A stretch of DNA of 35,404 bases from IMG/VR virus record IMGVR_UViG_3300021964_007578, positions 1 through 35,404 of that record. One strand, given 5' to 3'. Positions 4,149 to 30,909 of this stretch are shown piece after piece. This stretch comes from a virus. The position numbers were made by a program, and so were the translations under genes. Position 1 is the first letter of the stretch; each line of letters begins with the position of its first letter. A model generated the notes under the pieces. It was not told the DNA's origin. It was given only the letters and a program-made list of their open reading frames with translations, and made no database searches.

Positions 4149-4670
4149 CTACTCCTTATTGTCTGCATGGTACTGATCCACGATTTTCATTGCGTGGTTC
4201 CTTAGAGTTGCGTTACCTTTCGTCATTCCGTCAAGTAACAGTTTCTTTTCTTGCATGTATACCTTTGCAAATCCCGGGTCGTGTTTCATAATACTTTCGG
4301 AGTTAGAAATTAGGTCTGCATACTTAATTGTCTGCGCTTGTGCAGACGCATTGATAGAATGCTCTCTATCTTTTGCTTTACGGAATGCCCTGTTGCCATC
4401 TTCAGGATCTGAAATATCTGTAAGATCAGATACTAACGATTTTACAACTTTTCCAAACTGAACTTCGATGTCATCAAGTGTGGCTTCCGTATCTTCTACA
4501 GTATCGTGTAGAACTGCCGCTATCAACATTTCTGTTGTATGTGGTACAGTCTTTACAATACCCATCACCTCTATAGGGTGTCCGATGTAAGGAGCGCCAG
4601 TGTATTTTCTTTTCTGACCTTTGTGGGCAAGAGTAGCATAAGCGATTGCTCTGTCTAATGGCCTGTCCAT
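4149..4670 (-). CDS. HD-domain (p)ppGpp hydrolase-like protein (MESH1/SpoT-HD type)
   Basis: A 173-aa stand-alone HD phosphohydrolase. Motifs in order: AHKGQKRKYTGAPYIGHP (His31), AAVLHDTVEDTEAT (His55-Asp56, Glu59-Asp60) and TIKYADLISN (Asp119, Asn123). These are the metal and substrate residues of SpoT/RSH hydrolase domains and of the small hydrolase MESH1, which is about the same length. No synthetase domain is present. Expected reaction: removal of the 3'-pyrophosphate of (p)ppGpp. I infer it keeps the host stringent response low during infection; MESH1-like NADPH phosphatase activity is an alternative. It has a strong SD (AAGGAGG) and its own sigma70 promoter at 4699-4727. Confidence 0.82.
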   Translation of the reverse strand: MDRPLDRAIAYATLAHKGQKRKYTGAPYIGHPIEVMGIVKTVPHTTEMLIAAVLHDTVEDTEATLDDIEVQFGKVVKSLVSDLTDISDPEDGNRAFRKAKDREHSINASAQAQTIKYADLISNSESIMKHDPGFAKVYMQEKKLLLDGMTKGNATLRNHAMKIVDQYHADNKE

Positions 4671-4698
4671 AATTGTCCTCCTTCTTTATTATGTTTTA

Positions 4699-4727
4699 AT
4701 AATAGCATCTTTGTATTACTTTGTCAA
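4699..4727 (-). promoter_or_regulatory. Sigma70-type promoter of the HD hydrolase gene
   Basis: TTGACA (4722-4727), 17-nt spacer ending TGC, TATTAT (4699-4704) on the minus strand. It overlaps the last codons of the preceding gene, and the start codon follows about 28 nt downstream behind AAGGAGG. Confidence 0.83.
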
Positions 4728-4979
4728 GTATTTTAGTGCATAAAATGTAAATTCTCTATCTTCAAAATCAGCAAAGACATCTACTTGAAAGCCGTAACCA
4801 AAGTCGTCTTGTGAAATTTTTCTAAATAGATTTTTTGAGTTGTCTTTGCAGTATCGACCAGCAGGAGATTTTTCCATCCATTCAAAGATTGCTGTGTCGC
4901 AATATATTTCTGGATCTTCTACGTCACCTAACTTAAATCTATGAACGCAAAATCTATTCTGGGGTGAAGTCAAAGCCAT
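4716..4979 (-). CDS. Hypothetical phage protein
   Basis: An 87-aa soluble protein. Recognisable pieces are CVHRFKLGDVEDPEIYCDTA, WMEKSPAGRYC and a C-terminal VFADFEDREFTFYALKYLTK. The ending resembles that of the protein at 5885-6079 (WFFKDDRDAQMFALKY), a pattern I associate with small proteins of marine T4-like phages. The start at 4979 gives a 26-bp overlap with the gene before it; no better internal start exists before residue 35. Function unknown. Confidence 0.62.
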   Translation of the reverse strand: MALTSPQNRFCVHRFKLGDVEDPEIYCDTAIFEWMEKSPAGRYCKDNSKNLFRKISQDDFGYGFQVDVFADFEDREFTFYALKYLTK

Positions 4980-5247
4980 CGTGCTCTGGTGCGTACTGTG
5001 TCATTAAGATATGCTTACCAATCTCAAATAATCCTACACCGGCTGCAATGTCAGGTACATTAGACCAAATAACAGCATTACCATCTGCAGATAAACTTGT
5101 AGTTACAAACTCTGTAATTTCGCCATCAGCCACACGTTTACGAAACGCATCAACAATGTCTAGTCGAGATTGAATCTCTTCTGTTACTTCTTGCTTCTCG
5201 TTAGGCTTAAAGTCAACTACCTTTATTCCTTTGTATTCCTTTTCCAT
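4954..5247 (-). CDS. Hypothetical protein
   Basis: A 97-aa soluble protein beginning MEKEYKGIKVVDFKPNEKQE, with a central DAFRKRVADGEITEFVTTSL and an acidic end (APEHDGFDFTPE). No signal peptide, membrane segment or known motif. It lies 9 bp after the ClpP-like gene and overlaps the following gene, so it is probably co-transcribed from the promoter at 5843-5871. Function not recognised. Confidence 0.62.
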   Translation of the reverse strand: MEKEYKGIKVVDFKPNEKQEVTEEIQSRLDIVDAFRKRVADGEITEFVTTSLSADGNAVIWSNVPDIAAGVGLFEIGKHILMTQYAPEHDGFDFTPE

Positions 5248-5256
5248 TTCTCAATC

Positions 5257-5820
5257 CTATAAAATGTGATCCGCAATATTGAGCTTGATCAGATCTTTTG
5301 CGGTGAAGTACTGATCGCTTGGACTGTCAAAATACTTTTTAACCTGTGCTAAAGTATAACCAGTCGCTTCTCGTAAAATTTGATAGGCACGTTGTTCGCA
5401 GTTTTGATTTTCATGCATTGCTGCTTTCATGTCGTGCATCTTAGCGTCCATAGTATCGCTATGTTGATGGTTCATTATACCTGTGTTCTTTCCTATATAC
5501 CTTTCGCCTTGCTTACCACTTGCAAAGATTAAAAACCCTGCACTCATGATTGCACCAACACCTATTGTTCTTATATGATGATAACTTTGTTTCATAACAT
5601 CAATAAGTGCAAACGCTTCGTATAGGTCTCCACCATATGTGTTTACATATAAGGTAAGTGTTTTCTTTGGCTTCTTGTTTAAATTGGCAGAAACAATCCA
5701 CTTAATAGTTTGGCTGACGTTGTCATTAGCAATATCTCCACTTAGATAATGAATGTCATTATCGTGTAGACTCTTGTCTATTGCATCACTGGCTGTCCAA
5801 TTCTCGTACTTTGCTGGCAT
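5257..5820 (-). CDS. ClpP-like serine protease
   Basis: A 187-aa ClpP/crotonase-fold protease. The catalytic triad appears intact: Ser93 in GVGAIMSAGF (ClpP GxxxSMA), His118 in GIMNHQHS (ClpP MIHQP) and Asp169 in SPSDQYFTAKD (ClpP DRFxSAxEA). The oxyanion-side strand LYVNTYGGDLYEAFALID matches ClpP LxINSPGG. Length is close to cellular ClpP without a propeptide. In phages such enzymes can be capsid maturation proteases; here it lies among early-type genes under its own sigma70 promoter, so I favour a role in cytoplasmic proteolysis, perhaps with the ClpS and tmRNA also encoded here. That link is inference. Confidence 0.85.
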   Translation of the reverse strand: MPAKYENWTASDAIDKSLHDNDIHYLSGDIANDNVSQTIKWIVSANLNKKPKKTLTLYVNTYGGDLYEAFALIDVMKQSYHHIRTIGVGAIMSAGFLIFASGKQGERYIGKNTGIMNHQHSDTMDAKMHDMKAAMHENQNCEQRAYQILREATGYTLAQVKKYFDSPSDQYFTAKDLIKLNIADHIL

Positions 5821-7798: not shown

Positions 7799-9859
7799 TC
7801 ATTTTGTTGTTGCAATGAACACTCCATTCCAATCTTTAGGTAACTTTTGTGTTTTCATATATTCACAACGTTCAATCCACATAGTATAATACCCTTCCAT
7901 CTTAGCATCAAAGTGTCTCGATAGTTTTTCACAAATCCATATTGCTTCATCAAACTTTTGTTTTTGATACAACTCATGCATTTCTTGATGCTGGCGTTGT
8001 GCTGTGCGCCATGCTGGTTTAGGATTGTCTAGCACTGTCCAAATACCAATACCTACAGTTTTACCTTTAACTGCTAGGTCGTCTACTTTTAAGTAGAAGA
8101 AGTCGTCTTTGGTTTGTTGATATGTTGCATCTCCTACTAGTAATAGGCAACCATATTCTTTACACTTAGATTCTATTCTTGCCGCTGTACTTACAGAGTC
8201 GCCAAGAACATCATAAGAGTGCCTTGCGGTGCTACCCATTTCGCCAAGGTAACCAAGGCCAGTATTAATACCGGCACCCATGCCAACGGGAGGACGTCCT
8301 TCATTTGTAATTTGTTCATTAAATTTCTCCACTGCTTTAAGCATATCTAATCCACATTGCACTGCGGTCTTTGGATGTTCTGGATCTTCAATTGGTGCAT
8401 TGTGTACATGCATACTTGCATCACCAATGTACTTAATAACCATACCATCGCTGTCTAATATAGGTTGTGTAATAGCGTCCATATAGCCATTCATAATTTT
8501 GGTTAGGCCTTTTACATCATCACCAAAACTTTCACCTAATGGTGTAAACCCACGCAAGTCTGAAAATAGAATACTAACTTCTTTCTTCATACCTTCTTTA
8601 ATAAGTGCTGGATTTTCTTGTAGCATACGCACCACTGTTGGTGATGCATACCCTGCAAATTGCTTCTTAATCTTTTGTTTTTCAAAGAATTCTACTACAA
8701 AACGGTTAAATGTAGCATGGAAACCTACTGCTGTGCCTACTAACAGTATCCAGCTCACATCCCATAGCTGTAAATGCCCTTTAAACAGCGTATAAGCGCC
8801 GTACAAGCACGTTGCGTACATAACAAGTACCAATGCACCCACTACGTAATACGGTGCTAAAACCGCTGCAATTATAAGAATAAGCCCAATTACGATACTA
8901 GCAGCATACTCTACAAATGTAGCATAATCAAAACGTACAATGTTATCGCCATTTACAATGGTCTGTAATGCTGTTGCAGTCATTATATGACTGTATTGTT
9001 CTCCGTTTGGAGTAGCAATAACTGGTGCAAGTCCTTCTGCTGTAATACCAATAATTACAATCTTGCCTTCCATTCCCCAAAAATAATCTTCTTCTGATGC
9101 ACTATAAACATCAAAGTTTTTGTTCCAACGCAACCAAATTCTACCATTTGGATCTGTTTGAATAGTTTGATACGCCGGCACACGCATAGCAATGATGCCA
9201 CCTTCGCCGGCTTTAACTTGATAACTAGGATCGCCTACAGCAACACGGATTGTTTCCATAGTGATACTTGGATATACTTCGTCACCTACACGCATTAGCA
9301 ATGGTAAGCGTCTTACAACACCATCTATTTCAGGTGCAGTATTAATTACTCCAACGCCTGCTGCGTTTTGACCTAGTAAAGGTATAGGACCTAACATGCC
9401 TGGCCATTCAAATAACCAAGGCATAGGATCTCCTATTTTAGCAACACCTCTTGGTACTGCATTTTTATTTGTTTGCGTTGTTCCTGTTTGTGCAATAACA
9501 ACACCATTGTTTAGCAACATCTGTGCTAGTTCAGTATCTCCACCTAGCCTATCATTCTCAGAAAATAGGATAGGCATAACAATAACGCCAGCACCATGCG
9601 CTCTTAAGTTTTCAATAATACCTGCTAATACATCACGCTTCCATGGCCATTGTCCGTACTTTTCTATAGATGCTTCGTCTATTTCTAATATAGCAATGTC
9701 TTTGGATAGTGGTTCTACTGTGTCATAACTTTGAATAAGATCAAAAGATTTGAGTCTTAAAGTCTGTTTTACATAGGGATCGTTGAACCCTAATATACTA
9801 ATAACCGCTAAGGTTAGAAGTGCTGTAGACCAATGTGTTATAATCTTTGACAGTTTCAT
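7799..9859 (-). CDS. CHASE2-domain adenylate/guanylate cyclase (class III)
   Basis: A 686-aa protein: N-terminal membrane segment (about 10-25), extracytoplasmic CHASE2 sensor (about 35-310; DIAILEIDEASIEKYGQWPW), three membrane helices (about 315-380), then a class III cyclase domain (about 425-620). Metal aspartates are Asp434 (LFSDLRGFT) and Asp480 (KYIGDASM); adenine-specifying Lys476 and Asp550 and transition-state Arg561 are present. The usual Asn before that Arg is Ser557. Expected product is cAMP from a periplasmic signal. A late-type promoter lies 5 nt before the ATG. FecR and CHASE2 proteins often co-occur in bacteria; here the FecR gene lies upstream in the same cluster. Confidence 0.9.
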   Translation of the reverse strand: MKLSKIITHWSTALLTLAVISILGFNDPYVKQTLRLKSFDLIQSYDTVEPLSKDIAILEIDEASIEKYGQWPWKRDVLAGIIENLRAHGAGVIVMPILFSENDRLGGDTELAQMLLNNGVVIAQTGTTQTNKNAVPRGVAKIGDPMPWLFEWPGMLGPIPLLGQNAAGVGVINTAPEIDGVVRRLPLLMRVGDEVYPSITMETIRVAVGDPSYQVKAGEGGIIAMRVPAYQTIQTDPNGRIWLRWNKNFDVYSASEEDYFWGMEGKIVIIGITAEGLAPVIATPNGEQYSHIMTATALQTIVNGDNIVRFDYATFVEYAASIVIGLILIIAAVLAPYYVVGALVLVMYATCLYGAYTLFKGHLQLWDVSWILLVGTAVGFHATFNRFVVEFFEKQKIKKQFAGYASPTVVRMLQENPALIKEGMKKEVSILFSDLRGFTPLGESFGDDVKGLTKIMNGYMDAITQPILDSDGMVIKYIGDASMHVHNAPIEDPEHPKTAVQCGLDMLKAVEKFNEQITNEGRPPVGMGAGINTGLGYLGEMGSTARHSYDVLGDSVSTAARIESKCKEYGCLLLVGDATYQQTKDDFFYLKVDDLAVKGKTVGIGIWTVLDNPKPAWRTAQRQHQEMHELYQKQKFDEAIWICEKLSRHFDAKMEGYYTMWIERCEYMKTQKLPKDWNGVFIATTK

Positions 9860-9878: not shown

Positions 9879-10097
9879 TCAATGATCGTAAATATTCGGA
9901 CCGTCTTGCATTTTTACAGGTTTGCAATATGCTGTTATTCTATGTTCTGGCGGAACTAAGTATTTGTTTCCGTAATTACCATACTGCATAGGTATACGTT
10001 TAGCGTAATATTGGCACACATCTATGCTTCTAAAATACATAGGTGAAGGTTGCTGTACATCTGCTATTAATATTACTAACATAAAGGCATGTATCAA
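9879..10097 (-). CDS. Small secreted two-cysteine protein
   Basis: A 72-aa protein: MIHAFMLVILIADVQQPSPM, a short hydrophobic N-terminus, then SIDVCQYYAKRIPMQYGNYG and AYCKPVKMQDG. It has the same S/D-x-x-C middle and C-K-P end as the 1719-1907 protein and resembles 3815-4006. It abuts the gene at 10098 and lies between the curli cluster and the cyclase gene. Function unknown; export is plausible. Confidence 0.65.
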   Translation of the reverse strand: MIHAFMLVILIADVQQPSPMYFRSIDVCQYYAKRIPMQYGNYGNKYLVPPEHRITAYCKPVKMQDGPNIYDH

Positions 10098-10580
10098 CTA
10101 TAGTACCCCCCTCGCTTTTGCTGCTAGTACTACTATAAAGATTGCAAATCCGCCAACAACAACGATGCCAAGAACTATAGCAACAGCTTCTAATACTTTA
10201 CGTCTGCGTTCTTCTTGATCGTAAATTGCTTTTTGTCTTTTCTTTCTAATGTCGCCTTCGGTTTTTAAAAGCTCTTCCCATGCACTTGGACCTCTAGTAA
10301 AACTGATAATCTGTTTTAGTTCAGCTCTCATATCTTCTGCTTTTTTCTTAGCCATAAAGATTTGCATAGCTTCTTCTTCAACCGAACCTGCTTGAAATAG
10401 TTTTTTAAATAATGGCGGTTTCTTATTATACTCTTCTGCTTTTTTAATATCTGAAACAGCACCCATCCAACGACCTAAGTCGCTTGCCATGGATTCTATT
10501 TCACGTCCGGCTGCGAAGCCGGCTTTAATTGTGTTAAATGCACCGGTTGCCATAGCAACGGCTGAGATGGGATCTATCAA
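10098..10580 (-). CDS. Conserved T4-like marine phage protein with C-terminal TM, TTG start
   Basis: A 160-aa protein. MIDPISAVAMATGAFNTIKAGFAAGREIESMASDLGRW-type N-terminal helices are followed by a basic region (PPLFKKLFQAGSVEEEAM, ISFTRGPSAWEELLKTEGDI, KKRQKAIYDQEERRRK) and a C-terminal membrane helix (AIVLGIVVVGGFAIFIVVLA). I recall this protein as common to marine T4-like phages, unassigned. The start is TTG with GGAG 7 nt upstream. A late-type promoter (10610-10617) precedes it, pointing to a virion or assembly role. Confidence 0.75.
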   Translation of the reverse strand: MIDPISAVAMATGAFNTIKAGFAAGREIESMASDLGRWMGAVSDIKKAEEYNKKPPLFKKLFQAGSVEEEAMQIFMAKKKAEDMRAELKQIISFTRGPSAWEELLKTEGDIRKKRQKAIYDQEERRRKVLEAVAIVLGIVVVGGFAIFIVVLAAKARGVL

Positions 10581-10623: not shown

Positions 10624-11916
10624 TTAGTTTTGTGTTACTGTAGTTGTTGCACAGCCGTTTGAATTGCCGCAATGTTGGCTAATTGAATATGTTTGTGATG
10701 TTGAACTATCTTGTGTAAGGTCAAGTGTTGCACTATGACCTGTCATGCTAACACTTGCATTATGATTGCCTGTGCCGTCTTGTGTAATTCCAACAGTTTG
10801 ATCGCTACCAACTGCAATTTCTACATAGTGTGATCCTGATCCTTGCTGATATAAATCGATATCATTATCGTCACCTTGAACGCTTAGGAATGCTTTCTTA
10901 TCTCCGTCATTCAGTTGACTTGCTAAAATATTGTTGCTATCTCCATCAAGATCTAATGCAAAGAAATGACCATTATTTCCGATACCATTGTTATGCTTTT
11001 GTGTAATGCTTAATACATTAGAGTCACCATTAACATCAAACTCAACTCTGTTGTCGTCTGCTGTAGCGGCGTCACCTTGAGTAACAGTTGTTGTATTAGA
11101 GTCTCCTGTAACATCAAACAGTATTGCATTGTTGTTACCTCTTTGTGTTAATGTTGTATCATTGTTATTACCAATGATGTCAGCGTTTACTATATTATTA
11201 GTTGTTGAACCAACACCTGCTATAAGGTTATCACTTCCGTCTTGAACTATATCAAGCTCGTTATCATTACCAACCTGGTTGATGTATATACCACTACCAT
11301 CATGTGTTACTGCTCTTGATGTTGTAATTTGTGTAGTCTGTGCTGAACTTATGCTTGATGTGTATGATGGTGCTGTGGTTGAGATATCAGTTGAGGCATT
11401 CACATAGACCGTACCAGCAGTAGCATTAGGCACATACCATAACTGCCTCAACACTGCCCCACCACTCCATTCCGAGAACCATCGTTCATAGGTGTAGGTC
11501 TCTCCTGCCTGAAGTGTGATCGTGCCTGTCCTTGTTGCTGGAGCATGTAGACCAGACCAATCATCAATCACGGTGGTGCCATCTATCTTCAACAGTGAAC
11601 CATCGTCATCTTGATTGTAGAAAGTTACTGTGACGCTGTCACCTGCTGACCCATTGGACGGAATCGGCACAGTGATGTAACCATCAAGGTGAACAACCAC
11701 ATAGTCACTCCTGCCTGAGTCCAATACAACACCACCGCCCCAATCGTAGTTCATTGTGCTGTCTGACAAAGTGCCTGATGAAAGTAAGGTGTTTGATGAT
11801 GTGGGACAAGGCCAACTTGGACAATACCAAGTTTCGTAATTAACATCTGCCAATGCTTGTATAGGTAATAATAATAATAAAAATAATAAACTATTTCTGA
11901 ATAATGTCAATATCAT
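10624..11916 (-). CDS. PA14-like domain fused to curlin repeats, secreted
   Basis: A 430-aa protein beginning at ATG 11916 (GGAG upstream), with a signal peptide ending PIQALA. Residues about 25-165 form a PA14/GLEYA-like beta-sandwich: HLDGYITVPIPSNG, YNQDDDGSLLKIDGTTVIDDW, ITLQAGETYTYERWFSEWSG and VLRQLWYVP. The rest carries curlin-like repeats (IYINQVGNDNELDIVQDGSD, TTLTQRGNNN, VGITQDGTGNHN) ending TTTVTQN. Curlin repeats form cross-beta fibres; PA14-like domains bind glycans. The PA14-like coding part (about 11341-11820) is near 50% G+C against about 30% in the repeats, which suggests recent acquisition. It overlaps the FecR gene by 26 bp. Proposed: fibre subunit with a binding head exported via CsgG. 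Confidence 0.85.
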   Translation of the reverse strand: MILTLFRNSLLFLLLLLPIQALADVNYETWYCPSWPCPTSSNTLLSSGTLSDSTMNYDWGGGVVLDSGRSDYVVVHLDGYITVPIPSNGSAGDSVTVTFYNQDDDGSLLKIDGTTVIDDWSGLHAPATRTGTITLQAGETYTYERWFSEWSGGAVLRQLWYVPNATAGTVYVNASTDISTTAPSYTSSISSAQTTQITTSRAVTHDGSGIYINQVGNDNELDIVQDGSDNLIAGVGSTTNNIVNADIIGNNNDTTLTQRGNNNAILFDVTGDSNTTTVTQGDAATADDNRVEFDVNGDSNVLSITQKHNNGIGNNGHFFALDLDGDSNNILASQLNDGDKKAFLSVQGDDNDIDLYQQGSGSHYVEIAVGSDQTVGITQDGTGNHNASVSMTGHSATLDLTQDSSTSQTYSISQHCGNSNGCATTTVTQN

Positions 11917-13024
11917 TACTGCCGTCTCCAAGTGAGTAGTCTCTTGTTTCAAAATCTGATTGTTGTAAATTAATGTTATAACCGTTCTGTTGATCTAATA
12001 TTAATTCTACTTGCATACCTGTTCCGCTATCACGTCTAAATACCCAGTTAGGATTTTGATTGTAAAGTTCAATACCTGTTACAGGATCTTTTCCGTATTT
12101 ACTTTTTGCTTTTGATTTAGATAAACTATCACCTAGTATCTTTGATAACATTTCGTTAAGTTGATCAAGTACATTAACAAGGAAGTTTTGATCTAAATAG
12201 TTTGAATCTAAGTCTGTTTGCCAAAGATCTGGATCTTCATCAAGTTGATTTATATCTAAACCGTCGTACTCTAAAAAATCAAATCCTAAGAAGTCTGCTA
12301 GTTCTACTGCTCTTTCTCTTTCTAGCTCGTACTCAATTTCTTTAGGCCTACGGATAATAAGCAGGTTATCAATAAGTGATTCATTAATGTCAATGATAAT
12401 AGGATCTAAAGGATTTGACTCTGGTACATCTACAACTGTTGCTTGAAATGCTTTGTTTAGAATAACTTGGCCAGCATCTGATTCTACTGATATCTCACCT
12501 ACAACACAGATGCGCTTTGTTCCTACCGCTGAACAACTTGGTAAAAGAATAATTGTTGAACTTCCTGTTTCATCAACAGTCATTGTAAAGTCAGTACCGC
12601 GTACACCAATAGTAGCGGTTGGTGTAGTGATTTTTATATCTTGCCTACTGTTCTTTGCAATCTGTCCTGATGCATATCTAATAGTTCCAAAAGATGCTTT
12701 GAGGGCAAGTTTACCTTTTGAAGTACTAGGATCATACACAAACTCATCAATAATTAGTTTACTGTTCTGTGTTACATCAACTCTAGTTTCGTCTACAAAT
12801 TCTATAGCAGTTTTACCTTGGCCTGTACGAACGGTATCGTAACTTACTATAGTACTACCTTTTTCAGAAGTTAGTTTTTCTCCTGCTTGTCGTTCAATAA
12901 TAGTATTACCAATCTGCTGGGTTACATTTCCGATAGAAGCAACATTCGCCATCGCGGGTACGGTGATAGTTAGACAAACTATCATGCCTGCACGTAACAG
13001 AATTTTGTCCAGCAGCCGGATCAT
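11891..13024 (-). CDS. Secreted FecR-domain protein
   Basis: A 377-aa exported protein. N-terminal hydrophobic segment (LLRAGMIVCLTITVPAMA), then a FecR domain with the strongly conserved ITTPTATIGVRGTDFTM and preceding DTVRTGQGKTAIEFVDETRV and GTIRYASGQIA segments. The C-terminal half is acidic and linker-like (DEDPDLWQTDLDSNYLDQ), and its last residues (GDGSNDIDIIQK) look like a curlin strand. In bacteria FecR domains sense signals in the periplasm; here no sigma factor is adjacent, but a CHASE2 cyclase lies in the same cluster. I infer a surface-anchoring or sensory partner of the curlins. It starts 4 bp after the curlin gene. Confidence 0.85.
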   Translation of the reverse strand: MIRLLDKILLRAGMIVCLTITVPAMANVASIGNVTQQIGNTIIERQAGEKLTSEKGSTIVSYDTVRTGQGKTAIEFVDETRVDVTQNSKLIIDEFVYDPSTSKGKLALKASFGTIRYASGQIAKNSRQDIKITTPTATIGVRGTDFTMTVDETGSSTIILLPSCSAVGTKRICVVGEISVESDAGQVILNKAFQATVVDVPESNPLDPIIIDINESLIDNLLIIRRPKEIEYELERERAVELADFLGFDFLEYDGLDINQLDEDPDLWQTDLDSNYLDQNFLVNVLDQLNEMLSKILGDSLSKSKAKSKYGKDPVTGIELYNQNPNWVFRRDSGTGMQVELILDQQNGYNINLQQSDFETRDYSLGDGSNDIDIIQK

Positions 13025-13028
13025 AAAG

Positions 13029-13796
13029 TTAATCCGTTTGCGTAATGTCTATTGTTGCATCGTTTCCTACAGTAGTAAGACTCAACACTTTATCTTCAAC
13101 ACCTGATTGTGTAATGTTCGCAATCGAACCACCACCTTTCATATTAACTGTCATACTGTGACCATTAACATCACCAGTTCCTGATTGTGTAATTGCAACT
13201 GTATTAGCAACCCCACTTTCAACTGATGTGCTTGATGCTGTGTTACCGCCGGCGCCAACGCCTGTTAGTGTTGTTGAGCCATCGTTACTCATATCAAAGT
13301 CTAAATCAGCATTTTGAGCATTAAGTGTAAAAGTTAGAGTATCTGCATTACTGTTATTAGCCAAATCAATTGTACCCACAAAGTTCTGTGCGTCACCTGA
13401 TCCACCAATTGTTGCTGTAATGTCAGCACTTCCGCCTGTTACATCAATACTTAATGATACTGTTTCACAGTTACCAGCACCAGCGTTATCACAGTCTAAG
13501 TCGACTTGGTTACTGTTACCAGTTAAGTTAATGTTACCTGTATAGGTATTACCTTTAATGGTAGTTTCAATAACGTTAGTGTCACCTACTTGTGATACAG
13601 AAAACGTCATATCATTACCTTGCAACAAAACTCCTGTTGCATTAGTACCTAATACGTTATTTGTTCCGTCTTGTGTTACATCTAAGTCTAAGTCATTACC
13701 AGATTGCTGTATGTATATGTCATTAGCATAAGCTGGAGATATCAACCCTAAACCAAGAATAAAAAGACTACTTGCTACTATTGTCTTTAGTTTCAT
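13029..13796 (-). CDS. Curlin-repeat fibre protein (CsgA/CsgB-like)
   Basis: About 255 aa. Signal peptide (VASSLFILGLGLISPAYA) then repeats with the curlin pattern I-x-Q-x-G-x-x-N: DIYIQQSGNDLDLDVTQDGT, FSVSQVGDTNVIE, VAITQSGTG, IANITQSGV and a terminal IDITQTD. A middle Asn/Thr/Gly-rich part (LNAQNADLDFDMSNDG) has weaker repeats and one possible disulfide pair (DCDNAGAGNCE). It is longer than E. coli CsgA (151 aa). I choose the second of two ATGs (13796) because GGGAG lies 5 nt before it; the first is only 2 nt away. It overlaps the csgG end. Expected to polymerise outside the cell after export. Confidence 0.87.
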   Translation of the reverse strand: MKLKTIVASSLFILGLGLISPAYANDIYIQQSGNDLDLDVTQDGTNNVLGTNATGVLLQGNDMTFSVSQVGDTNVIETTIKGNTYTGNINLTGNSNQVDLDCDNAGAGNCETVSLSIDVTGGSADITATIGGSGDAQNFVGTIDLANNSNADTLTFTLNAQNADLDFDMSNDGSTTLTGVGAGGNTASSTSVESGVANTVAITQSGTGDVNGHSMTVNMKGGGSIANITQSGVEDKVLSLTTVGNDATIDITQTD

Positions 13797-14802
13797 CATC
13801 GCTCCCTTGACTGTCTATTCCGTCAGCCAATTTTTTAATTAACGGATCGTTATGCCAACACATGTTGTCTGCGTCACAATAGTAACTTGTTACACCTGGA
13901 TACTGCTTATTAAATTCATCTTCTGGTAATTTAATAATAGCTTCATGTCTCTGGTGTATAGTCGGACGCGACTCCGGTATTAACATACTCTCTAGTTCAC
14001 TTTCCCTCTTGAACTTCCAAAGTTTCTTTTCTTCACCTTTCATTATCAACTCAACTATTGCTGCTTCAATTGCTGTACGAACTGCATAGTTGGTTGGTTC
14101 GTTTACTGCTGCGCCTACTTCAATTTCAAGTGCCTTGGTGCCCATATCTAAGAAACGAAATACATCGCCTCCGCTACTATAACTTGCAATTTTCTTTTCA
14201 GTTGCCACAGTTAGGAGTACTTCTCCTGTTTGTGTACTGATTATGCGCATCGCCACAGTAACTTGGTCTGTTCTATAAGATGTCTGACCGCCAATGCCAA
14301 AATATCTAGCACCAACACCCCCACTCTCCATATTAGAATCGTAGCCAACAACTCCACCTTCTAATATCAGCCCCGCAAAGAGCAGTGGTTTTAAATCAGT
14401 CGGATCGTTTTCGTAAACTTCTCTAGTTGATCTAATTAACTGTCTTTCTTTAACTAGATTATCTAAGCCTACTCGTTCCACAACTTGGAACCACTTTCCT
14501 CCACCCACTTCTTTCAGAGCATTTATAACCCAAACCTCAGCACCTTGAGTAACCGCACTACTGAGCTGACTAAAACTGTCATTAGGCTTACGTTGCCCTG
14601 TTTTGTCTAGAAAACTGTAAATTGCAATTGTTATTTTTGGTCCATCGATAGCTGGCACGGTCTCCAATACACTTTGGTATGGACTCTCCGCTTTCACGGG
14701 TGGTGTCCAATCCTTTTTTGTATAGGTGGCCGCGCAACCTGTTATTGCTATAGCCAGGAACACAAATAACAAACTTCTAATTAAACTAATCAATCCTGTC
14801 AT
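13768..14802 (-). CDS. csgG: CsgG-family curli secretion lipoprotein
   Basis: A 344-aa lipoprotein: signal peptide with lipobox AITGC (Cys23), then a CsgG/HfaB fold with ITIAIYSFLDKTGQRKPN, AVTQGAEVWVINALKEVGGG, WFQVVERVGLDNLVKERQLI, LLFAGLILEGGVVGYDSN and VTVAMRIISTQTGEVLLTV. CsgG forms the nonameric outer-membrane pore of type VIII secretion. It is longer than E. coli CsgG (277 aa) owing to a C-terminal extension with two cysteines (YYCDADNMCWHND). TAATG overlap with csgF. No csgE homologue is visible, so gating may differ. Confidence 0.93.
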   Translation of the reverse strand: MTGLISLIRSLLFVFLAIAITGCAATYTKKDWTPPVKAESPYQSVLETVPAIDGPKITIAIYSFLDKTGQRKPNDSFSQLSSAVTQGAEVWVINALKEVGGGKWFQVVERVGLDNLVKERQLIRSTREVYENDPTDLKPLLFAGLILEGGVVGYDSNMESGGVGARYFGIGGQTSYRTDQVTVAMRIISTQTGEVLLTVATEKKIASYSSGGDVFRFLDMGTKALEIEVGAAVNEPTNYAVRTAIEAAIVELIMKGEEKKLWKFKRESELESMLIPESRPTIHQRHEAIIKLPEDEFNKQYPGVTSYYCDADNMCWHNDPLIKKLADGIDSQGSDDETKDNSSK

Positions 14803-15257
14803 TAAAATCCAAAACCTGTCAATGGTACAGTGATTGTCGTAACGGTTCCATCTTCTTCTGTAATGGTGATGCTAATAGTATCTGTGGTAGTATCTTTCAC
14901 CCAGTATATTGTAGCACCTTCGATTTCAGCTGTGCCACTGTTAGCACCTGTGTCATCGAACATACCGTCGACTAATTGCTTAGAAAGTTGTGCATAGATT
15001 CTACTCTCAACGTTGTTAAGAAACTTCGCTAAGTTAGTAGACTCTGCTTCACGCTTTGCTCTCGCAGCATCTGATTCAGCCTTGTCCTTAATATCTTTTT
15101 TACGAGTGAACTGTAATTGTTCAATACTCAAGACATGGCTGGAGTACCCTTGACCTGAAAATGATGGATTCTTAAATTTAAAGACCTCATCACCTGCAAG
15201 GGCAGGTGCTGTAATCAGTAAACTCAGAATAATAGATGCAGAAATTACATTTTTCAT
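14802..15257 (-). CDS. csgF: CsgF-family curli assembly protein
   Basis: A 151-aa protein with a signal peptide (IILSLLITAPALA) and a CsgF-type start, FKFKNPSFSGQGYSSHVLSI, corresponding to the pore-plugging N-terminal peptide of CsgF (NPNFGG...L...A). A charged helix follows (DKAESDAARAKREAESTNLA) and a beta-rich C-terminus (DTISITITEEDG). CsgF docks on CsgG and couples fibre nucleation to the pore. It is first of the leftward csg cluster with GGAG 6 nt before its ATG and late-type promoters upstream. Confidence 0.88.
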   Translation of the reverse strand: MKNVISASIILSLLITAPALAGDEVFKFKNPSFSGQGYSSHVLSIEQLQFTRKKDIKDKAESDAARAKREAESTNLAKFLNNVESRIYAQLSKQLVDGMFDDTGANSGTAEIEGATIYWVKDTTTDTISITITEEDGTVTTITVPLTGFGF

Positions 15258-15438: not shown

Positions 15439-15681
15439 ATGAGCAAGGAAGAACTTACTGAACAGGAGGCGATGTGGGAGTTATTGGAAACAACGTTTCC
15501 TGGCAAAGATCACAATTTAGTAATTAACTTACCTAATGAACTAGCAGAATTAGAGAAAAACAAACTTATGCAAGTTCTCGAGTTTCACGATTGGAATAAA
15601 TCAAGAGCAGCCAAAGATTTGGGCATAGGCCGAACAAATCTAATTGCTAAAATAAAAAAATATGAATTGATTCAGGATTAA
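15439..15681 (+). CDS. Fis-type (HTH_8) DNA-binding protein
   Basis: An 80-aa protein whose last 42 residues form a Fis/NtrC C-terminal helix-turn-helix: ELEKNKLMQVLEFHDWNKSR, AAKDLGIGRTNLIAKIKKYEL. In this family the pattern is L-x(4)-N-x-x-AAxxLGIxRxTLxxKLKxY. The N-terminal half is acidic and lacks the AAA+ or receiver domains of NtrC-type activators, as in Fis (98 aa). It is the only plus-strand gene in its region and diverges from csgF across a palindrome. I infer it regulates the csg cluster or phage late genes. Its stop codon overlaps that of the convergent gene at 15678. Confidence 0.85.
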   Translation: MSKEELTEQEAMWELLETTFPGKDHNLVINLPNELAELEKNKLMQVLEFHDWNKSRAAKDLGIGRTNLIAKIKKYELIQD

Positions 15682-29835: not shown

Positions 29836-30909
29836 CTAGGATCTGACTGGACGGAATATACCTGTCACACGTCCTCGAGACTGTGTCCATCCGCCTTTCC
29901 AGCTATTAGTAATCGTTCCACCCGATGGATTGTTATTAGTGGCACTCGCTTTATCACTTTGGTTACCGCCAACAAAAGAATAAACTCCTGGCGACGGAAC
30001 AGTGTATATAAAGTTAACGTGACTGTAGTCCCAGACTACAATGTCACCCGGTTGACCATCTGATAGTGGTATAGGAACACCACCATATAAACTTGTTTTA
30101 TCTCTAAAGTCATATGCTCTAGCACTTTGCATATATTTGTAACCTGTACGTTTTAGTACCCAATTACAAAATCCTGCACACCAAGGTGTTTGATCGTCTT
30201 GCCAATATGCCGTAGCCGGAAAGCCTAACTCTGACCATAAATTAAGAATATTAGGATTTTTCCCTACAACTGCTGGCCTTGGATCTCCTCTAGGAGGAGT
30301 AAATCCTAATTCATCCCATTGATTATTATTAGCTTCTGCTAGTACTTGACTTAAGAATCCTGGAATACCATCTGCTGCCGCTGTTGAATTTGCTGCACTT
30401 GCATCAACCAAGGCTTGTTCGTTTGTTCCTAAATCATCAACACCTGCTGCTGGAGCACCTTCATACCTTACTGGTACCTGATTCTCTGCAATAGTTCCGT
30501 TGGCTTGTCCACCACCTGTTGCACCTACATCCGGTGGGTTTTCAATTGCTTCTTGTATAACTGCATTGATTGCTGCTGCCTGTGCCGGCGAAAGTATAAT
30601 AGGTGGTACATATCCTTCGTTGGCCCAAACATTGGGTGATCCTGTTTCTGCTGCATTAGCGACCCAACTTCCGTGTCCGCCAGTTGCATCGTTCTTACGA
30701 TGAACAGGAATATTATTAATCCAAACACTTAATGAGCCGCCTGTAGCAGGGTCACCACATTTGGTGGTATCGCCTATACGTACAGTTTGTTCGTTATTAG
30801 TAAACACATCTGGAGAACCAACTGCGTATGGTTCTTGATGAAATGGATTGGGCGTAGGACTTGCATGTCCTTTGTGCTTGTCTACATTTGTTCTTACTAC
30901 TTCTGGCAT
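29836..30909 (-). CDS. PAAR-domain spike tip fused to NlpC/P60 or CHAP-like hydrolase
   Basis: A 357-aa protein. Residues 1-100 are a PAAR-like spike-tip repeat (KHKGHASPTPNPFHQEPYAV, GSPDVFTNNEQTVRIGDTTK, SLSVWINNIPVHRKNDATGG, GSPNVWANEGY). A Gly/Ala/Asn-rich linker (about 100-200) joins a C-terminal cysteine amidase: TPWCAGFCNWVLKRTGY (Cys244), GDIVVWDYSHVNFIY (His297), GGNQSDKA. PAAR tips sharpen the tail spike; the hydrolase would open peptidoglycan on entry, the job done by gp5 lysozyme in T4. A late-type GATAAGTA lies 5 nt before the ATG, fitting a virion protein. Confidence 0.88.
   Translation of the reverse strand: MPEVVRTNVDKHKGHASPTPNPFHQEPYAVGSPDVFTNNEQTVRIGDTTKCGDPATGGSLSVWINNIPVHRKNDATGGHGSWVANAAETGSPNVWANEGYVPPIILSPAQAAAINAVIQEAIENPPDVGATGGGQANGTIAENQVPVRYEGAPAAGVDDLGTNEQALVDASAANSTAAADGIPGFLSQVLAEANNNQWDELGFTPPRGDPRPAVVGKNPNILNLWSELGFPATAYWQDDQTPWCAGFCNWVLKRTGYKYMQSARAYDFRDKTSLYGGVPIPLSDGQPGDIVVWDYSHVNFIYTVPSPGVYSFVGGNQSDKASATNNNPSGGTITNSWKGGWTQSRGRVTGIFRPVRS

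Follow-up and report, generated by a model that had tools for sequence, protein, structure and literature searches.

SAR11 are among the most abundant marine bacteria, and their phages carry curli genes. As described in sections of PMC7029224 and PMC9599517, the pelagiphage and pelagimyophage curli (T8SS) operon runs in the order CsgF, CsgG, curlin, FecR, second curlin and adenylate cyclase, and the second curlin is labelled there as a fibre-repeat or hypothetical protein. The purposes proposed for phage curli in sections of PMC7029224, PMC9599517 and PMC9004378 are sibling-cell capture, superinfection defence, uptake and lysis timing. The term PA14 is absent from the main texts of these three papers, and searches of open-licence PubMed Central text found no account of curlin heads of the kind described below. 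To the known operon and second fibre gene we add the heads of that fibre and their exchange between phages.

The window is the whole of IMG/VR virus record IMGVR_UViG_3300021964_007578 (35,404 bases, a fragment). Its large ribonucleotide reductase has its nearest counterparts in marine T4-like phages (72% for Synechococcus phage S-BM3 and for Pelagibacter phage Mosig, 70% for Pelagibacter phage HTVC008M), and its curli operon belongs to the group above, sharing the gene order of HTVC008M and Melnitz:

14802–15257, minus strand: CsgF (Pfam CsgF, 5.2e-17), adjoining CsgG.
13768–14802, minus strand: CsgG outer-membrane secretion pore (Pfam CsgG, 2.2e-49).
13029–13799, minus strand: first curlin fibre gene (Pfam curlin repeat, 2.4e-05), headless, with repeats starting straight after the signal peptide.
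11891–13024, minus strand: FecR-domain gene (Pfam FecR, 2.3e-11).
10624–11916, minus strand: second curlin fibre gene, 430 amino acids, ATG at 11916, its start overlapping the end of fecR.
10098–10580, minus strand: small gene between the second curlin gene and the cyclase.
7799–9859, minus strand: CHASE2–adenylate/guanylate cyclase (Pfam CHASE2, 1.2e-42; cyclase, 2.4e-17), downstream in the same gene group.

Just upstream of csgF, on the opposite strand, lies a Fis-type HTH_8 protein (15439–15681; Pfam 5.4e-14), a possible regulator of the curli operon. The gap between the small gene and the cyclase holds about 290 extra bases in two related loci, L002 and L017, that are absent from the window (10094–10098); those of L002 (3596–3886) contain a small open frame.

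The second curlin protein (curlin repeat PF07012, 1.8e-12, 47.4 bits against a cut-off of 20.7) is differentiated into the following parts:

11848–11916, minus strand: signal peptide MILTLFRNSLLFLLLLLPIQALA, read from the translation, with probable cleavage before DVNYETW.
11371–11847, minus strand: exchangeable GC-rich PA14 head of about 159 residues, delimited by Pfam, fold, composition and comparison with L002.
11602–11607, minus strand: codons of an Asp-Asp pair (mature residues 81–82), the PA14 calcium/sugar motif.
11470–11472, minus strand: codon of Glu126, which aligns with the third of the calcium-binding aspartates in MhPA14.
11290–11370, minus strand: conserved linker beginning SSISSAQTTQITTSRAV, joining head to repeats and forming the downstream edge of the cassette.
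10627–11289, minus strand: curlin-repeat shaft, a predicted β-solenoid (Pfam and structure model).

Curlin repeats and the CsgG and CsgF genes encoded alongside are as in CsgA/CsgB-type subunits, but the repeats do not begin soon after the signal peptide, being preceded by the 159-residue head and the linker. The protein is therefore a headed variant and not a plain CsgA/CsgB. The second curlin of Melnitz, like the first of the window, has its repeats soon after the signal peptide.

A PA14-like domain within a GC-rich block had been proposed in a preliminary description of this DNA, and both profile and predicted fold bear it out. Pfam PA14 (PF07691) matches the window head at 3.6e-07 (30.5 bits, cut-off 24), and the profile is matched by all 19 aligned phage heads at E ≤ 0.1 (best 2.5e-11). 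An AlphaFold2 model from the alignment of these 19 phage sequences, window first (mean pLDDT 73.6; head plus shaft, as in the α/β model described below), adopts a PA14 fold closest to RsgI3 (6qe7, Z 18.0, 2.1 Å over 139 residues), followed by the MpPA14 sugar complexes (Z about 14, 2.7–3.1 Å over 147–148 residues) and Flo5 and Epa1 (Z about 13). Asp81-Asp82 is invariant in 19/19 heads and aligns with the RADDG motif of MhPA14 (6m8m, Asp136-Asp137). The third aspartate of MhPA14, Asp181, reads in the alignment as Glu126 in the window, a glutamate likewise invariant in all 19. According to parts of PMC6650083 and PMC8092209, the Asp-Asp motif of PA14 lectins holds the calcium that binds sugar. 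We infer that the head is a calcium-dependent, lectin-like PA14 domain with a probable capacity for sugar binding. It shares its fold (Z about 13–14.5) and Asp-Asp motif with the PA14 lectins of RTX adhesins (MpPA14, MhPA14) and with the yeast flocculins Flo5 and Epa1, heads that are also carried by a long surface protein; unlike these, it sits on a phage-encoded curlin-repeat stalk beside CsgG, with glutamate in place of aspartate as the third calcium ligand.

The head (11371–11847) has 47.8% G+C against 37.9% for the window, and none of the 33,974 windows of 477 bp not overlapping it reaches this value (maximum 46.5%, at 30355), making it the most GC-rich stretch of its size. Codons 36–191 have a GC3 of 43.6%, where 27.8% is predicted for their amino acids from the codon usage of the window, an excess equalled in 0/146 windows of 156 codons from the 26 other window genes. 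GC of the same codons is 47.6% (expected 42.7%; gene average 38.1%), so that about half of the excess lies in amino-acid content and about half at synonymous sites; GC3 of the shaft is 22%. The 60-nt lines counted in the preliminary description as 47–53% G+C, with one at 40%, agree overall except for one at 55% (52, 50, 55, 40, 52, 50 and 47% across 11401–11820), and its two low-GC lines are confirmed (30% for the line at 10981, 27% for that at 11821). The block it outlined is real, with edges that need shifting to 11371–11847: the left one fell within the linker by about 30 bp, and the right one stopped about 27 bp early.

Both outcomes that the preliminary description named as refuting are contradicted: a PA14 fold is predicted, and not every relative has this domain at this composition. 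Head and shaft GC3 was compared in 48 full-length headed fibres, with the signal peptide trimmed by a crude pattern whose cut falls late in some rows. GC3 lies above that of the own shaft by 0.19–0.31 in 6 of the 16 full-length PA14 heads (window, L063, L065, L070, L082 and L106) and matches it in seven (difference −0.03 to 0.07); the remaining three sit on GC-richer shafts, with the head equal or lower (L043, −0.01; L003, −0.19; L115, −0.23). A second kind of head, with an α/β fold, stays within 0.09 of its shaft in 28/30 cases, the outliers being L142 (0.15 above) and L141 (far below, at 0.32 in the head against 0.76 in the shaft). We take the composition signal to be a trace left as heads passed, in both directions, between phages differing in G+C, and not a feature inherent in the PA14 domain.

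Exchange is seen most directly between the window and L002, which are 91.7% identical from 13538 to 11882 and 90.2% identical from 11369 to 10094, with no detectable DNA similarity across 11370–11881. L017 gives the same pattern (flanks 82% and 80%). L105 reverses it, with a head 89% identical (11850–11588, where the L105 contig ends) and matched flanks at about 70%. The window head was therefore exchanged after its lineage split from that of L002. As L017, the next relative on the FecR tree, is α/β-headed, parsimony has the window lineage taking a PA14 head in place of an α/β one. The closest heads found, those of L105/L018, have 89% DNA identity and a dS of 0.38, so the direct donor was not found. 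Of the "recent acquisition" proposed earlier, the acquisition stands and its recency is uncertain; likewise, the suggested "variable adhesin position" is variable, with different heads and repeated swaps, while adhesion itself is presumptive.

Scans of viral contigs yielded 81 distinct fibre ORFs, in which one curlin shaft family bears a PA14 head, an unrelated ThuA/glutamine-amidotransferase-like α/β head or no head. Besides those with PA14, most bear the α/β head; L086, L090 and L013 were typed as such by eye, with only 59 head residues visible in L013. The α/β head matches no Pfam family, and a PDB sequence search gave nothing beyond weak flavodoxin-type matches. Its model (mean pLDDT 79.5) resembles IFT52 (Z 17.4), a yeast oligosaccharyltransferase chain (7oci_G, Z 16.6), GH42 enzymes and ThuA-like proteins (1t0b, Z 13.7), which places it in the class I glutamine-amidotransferase-like fold; we claim no catalytic role for it. 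Headless second fibres occur in Melnitz (L023) and L101.

A head-independent survey anchored on FecR (the best 80 of at least 589 matches) found 24 α/β-headed, 13 PA14-headed and 18 headless curlins beside fecR, with 22 loci lacking a shaft-profile match and 3 at a contig end. Read by eye, the translations of those 22 comprise 13 very short curlins, 5 of SoxYZ type and 4 others. With a headless or very short second curlin in many operons, the head is evidently not essential. In L200, L216, L219, L226 and L232 the gene after fecR encodes a secreted SoxY-SoxZ fusion instead of a second curlin (for L200, at about 4585–5340, Pfam SoxY 2.4e-25 and SoxZ 5e-16; the other four judged by eye). L206 and L209 have near-identical signal-peptide regions followed by a PA14-headed and a headless curlin, respectively, so a head may have been gained or lost. 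L007 and L009 have identical FecR and α/β heads that agree in their first half and differ in the second, a case of mosaicism inside a head. The fibre shafts of L099 and L102 are split across two reading frames, by frameshift or sequencing error. A different display format occurs on the viral contigs L119 (5854–7236) and L120, where a secreted PA14 domain is borne by a stalk that is rich in Thr and Pro and has a hydrophobic C-terminus.

Head type is distributed across phages with little regard to the neighbouring gene. In the tree of 64 shafts (41 α/β, 23 PA14; of the 81 ORFs, 15 were excluded for lacking a readable head or having a short shaft, as were the headless L023 and L101), head type changes at least 10 times (8–10 in bootstraps; well supported branches alone require 6). 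The FecR tree, with 49 labelled rows, needs at least 11 such changes (10–11 in bootstraps; 8 forced). Shuffling labels on the latter gives about 13 changes on average, and 55–78 of 500 shuffles are as low as observed; head type is thus hardly linked to FecR. Forcing all PA14 carriers into one clade is rejected on either tree (p-AU 4e-28 and 5e-50), and over 616 same-type pairs FecR identity correlates with shaft identity (Spearman 0.61) and not with head identity (−0.01). Swaps also occur between subtypes, the shafts of L074/L082 being 99% identical and their heads 49%. Across 19 pairs, head dN/dS is 0.09–0.51, denoting purifying selection, and the heads are thus kept functional. Shared heads can have far lower dS than their shafts (L022/L116, 0.05 against 0.85; L004/L127, 0.30 against 3.6), which speaks against convergence.

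The cassette has recurrent edges. DNA similarity between pairs sharing a head (L082/L106, L004/L127, L002/L127, L002/L032 and L003/L043) begins within about 2 residues of the signal-peptidase site; it stops 9–12 residues before the first member's linker motif in the first three pairs and continues into the shaft in the last two. Between pairs sharing a backbone (L074/L082, window/L002 and window/L017) the similarity breaks off within the signal peptide or at its end and returns 9–13 residues before the linker motif. Comparative sequence evidence establishes the head domain and its foreign composition, its exchange, the recurrence and boundaries of that exchange, and purifying selection upon it. 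Diversity-generating retroelements leave a pattern of point changes, unlike the whole-domain replacement seen here. For an invertible, shufflon-type cassette, the 35-kb window (a fragment record) contains no inverted pair bracketing the head and no second head. A 25-nt inverted repeat with 84% complementarity (11370–11394/12483–12507) has its arms at the downstream edge of the head and inside fecR, and may be due to chance.

When genome contigs were scanned with the PA14 head, a single relative came up, in the single-cell genome of a SAR11 bacterium (L147, 4953–10439), where PA14 forms the N-terminus of a protein of at least 1,829 residues with Ig-like repeats. A search of that SAR11 family found PA14 relatives in 2/53 genomes, that of L147 included, in long open frames (loci L147, L148 and L149). 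A giant SAR11 adhesin tipped with a related PA14, of which one was read, indicates that such heads are used by cells of the host group too; the SAR11 heads form their own branch and are thus not shown to be donors of the phage heads. The curlin shaft was found in 0/53 genomes of that family and the α/β head in 0/385 genomes of the class, both weak absences since the searches had no positive control.

Taken together, we consider it probable that the second fibre is a secreted curli-type fibre with an exchangeable lectin-like head. A subunit produced during infection would be exported by Sec and then through the phage's own CsgG/CsgF pore, and the fibre displayed on the surface of the infected cell, where the PA14 head should bind sugar on another cell, the same cell or a particle. 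Co-infecting phages would trade the head as one cassette, from signal-peptidase site to conserved linker, while shaft and export machinery stay; in other phages the α/β head would fill the same slot. The benefit would most likely be that infected cells become tethered to nearby hosts or to surfaces. We infer secretion, fibre assembly, display, sugar binding and the benefit of a headed fibre from the sequences. Given the narrowness of the CsgG pore, a head of about 159 residues would need to be unfolded in transit. Parts of PMC9477280 describe engineered curli fusions that do pass CsgG, within some limits. Those fusions (CsgA–nanobody) similarly place a binding domain on a curli subunit exported by CsgG; unlike them, the phage head is natural, N-terminal and evolutionarily exchanged.

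Several other accounts could be given of a head that turns over so readily. Heads may vary as targets of competitors or grazers, or may bind the phage's own particles or block superinfection, in place of gripping sugars on other cells. Any recognition conflict predicts turnover of the exposed part, and a passage of PMC9599517 proposes curli as a defence against superinfection; yet a lectin calcium motif kept in all 19 heads favours binding over camouflage, while being silent on what is bound. We regard this reading as rather unlikely. We find it improbable that the pore serves lysis timing or uptake and that the fibre genes are decaying leftovers whose head variation has no adhesive meaning. 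This use of the pore was proposed for Melnitz in PMC9004378, parts of which report no clumping of infected cells, counting against adhesion, and no csgA/csgB; some operons also lack a headed fibre. Two curlin-repeat genes are, however, annotated in the Melnitz records, and as its second fibre is headless the no-clumping result does not test headed fibres. Purifying selection on heads and whole replacement at domain edges are also not expected from decay.

Phage tail-fibre tips likewise combine a constant shaft with a binding end exchanged between phages. By analogy, this fixed-position exchange could mark a virion part binding host receptors, and the HTVC008M operon adjoins a tape-measure and baseplate block. 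But those neighbouring tail genes lie on the opposite strand, and the signal-peptide-like start and placement among the secretion genes of a CsgF–CsgG–curlin operon imply that, in contrast to tail fibres, the protein should end on the infected cell and not the virion, making a tail role very improbable. That the mosaic genes are assembly artefacts is more doubtful still, and for the family already contradicted. Most loci are metagenome contigs, and exact 28- and 29-base searches found the window's two junctions in no other viral contig, so its own joins rest on one record plus the comparisons with L002, L017 and L105. Head–shaft joins nevertheless recur across datasets (for example, L032/L033/L034, L005/L016, L052/L055 and L063/L065), the joins falling at the same protein boundary, and cultured HTVC008M has a PA14-headed fibre.

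That whole heads are repeatedly exchanged with their calcium motif intact is an argument for the fibre being produced and for its having a variable binding partner. A cultured pair allows a direct test, HTVC008M being PA14-headed and Melnitz, in which no clumping was seen, headless. By analogy with other swapped binding ends, head swapping points to the gripping of something variable outside the infected cell. The evidence leaves evenly balanced whether these phages operate a natural system of display, in which recognition heads from a pool common to phage lineages that differ in base composition, and perhaps in host, are mounted on a host-foreign amyloid fibre. If they do, an infected cell would gain a new surface specificity that lasts as long as the infection.
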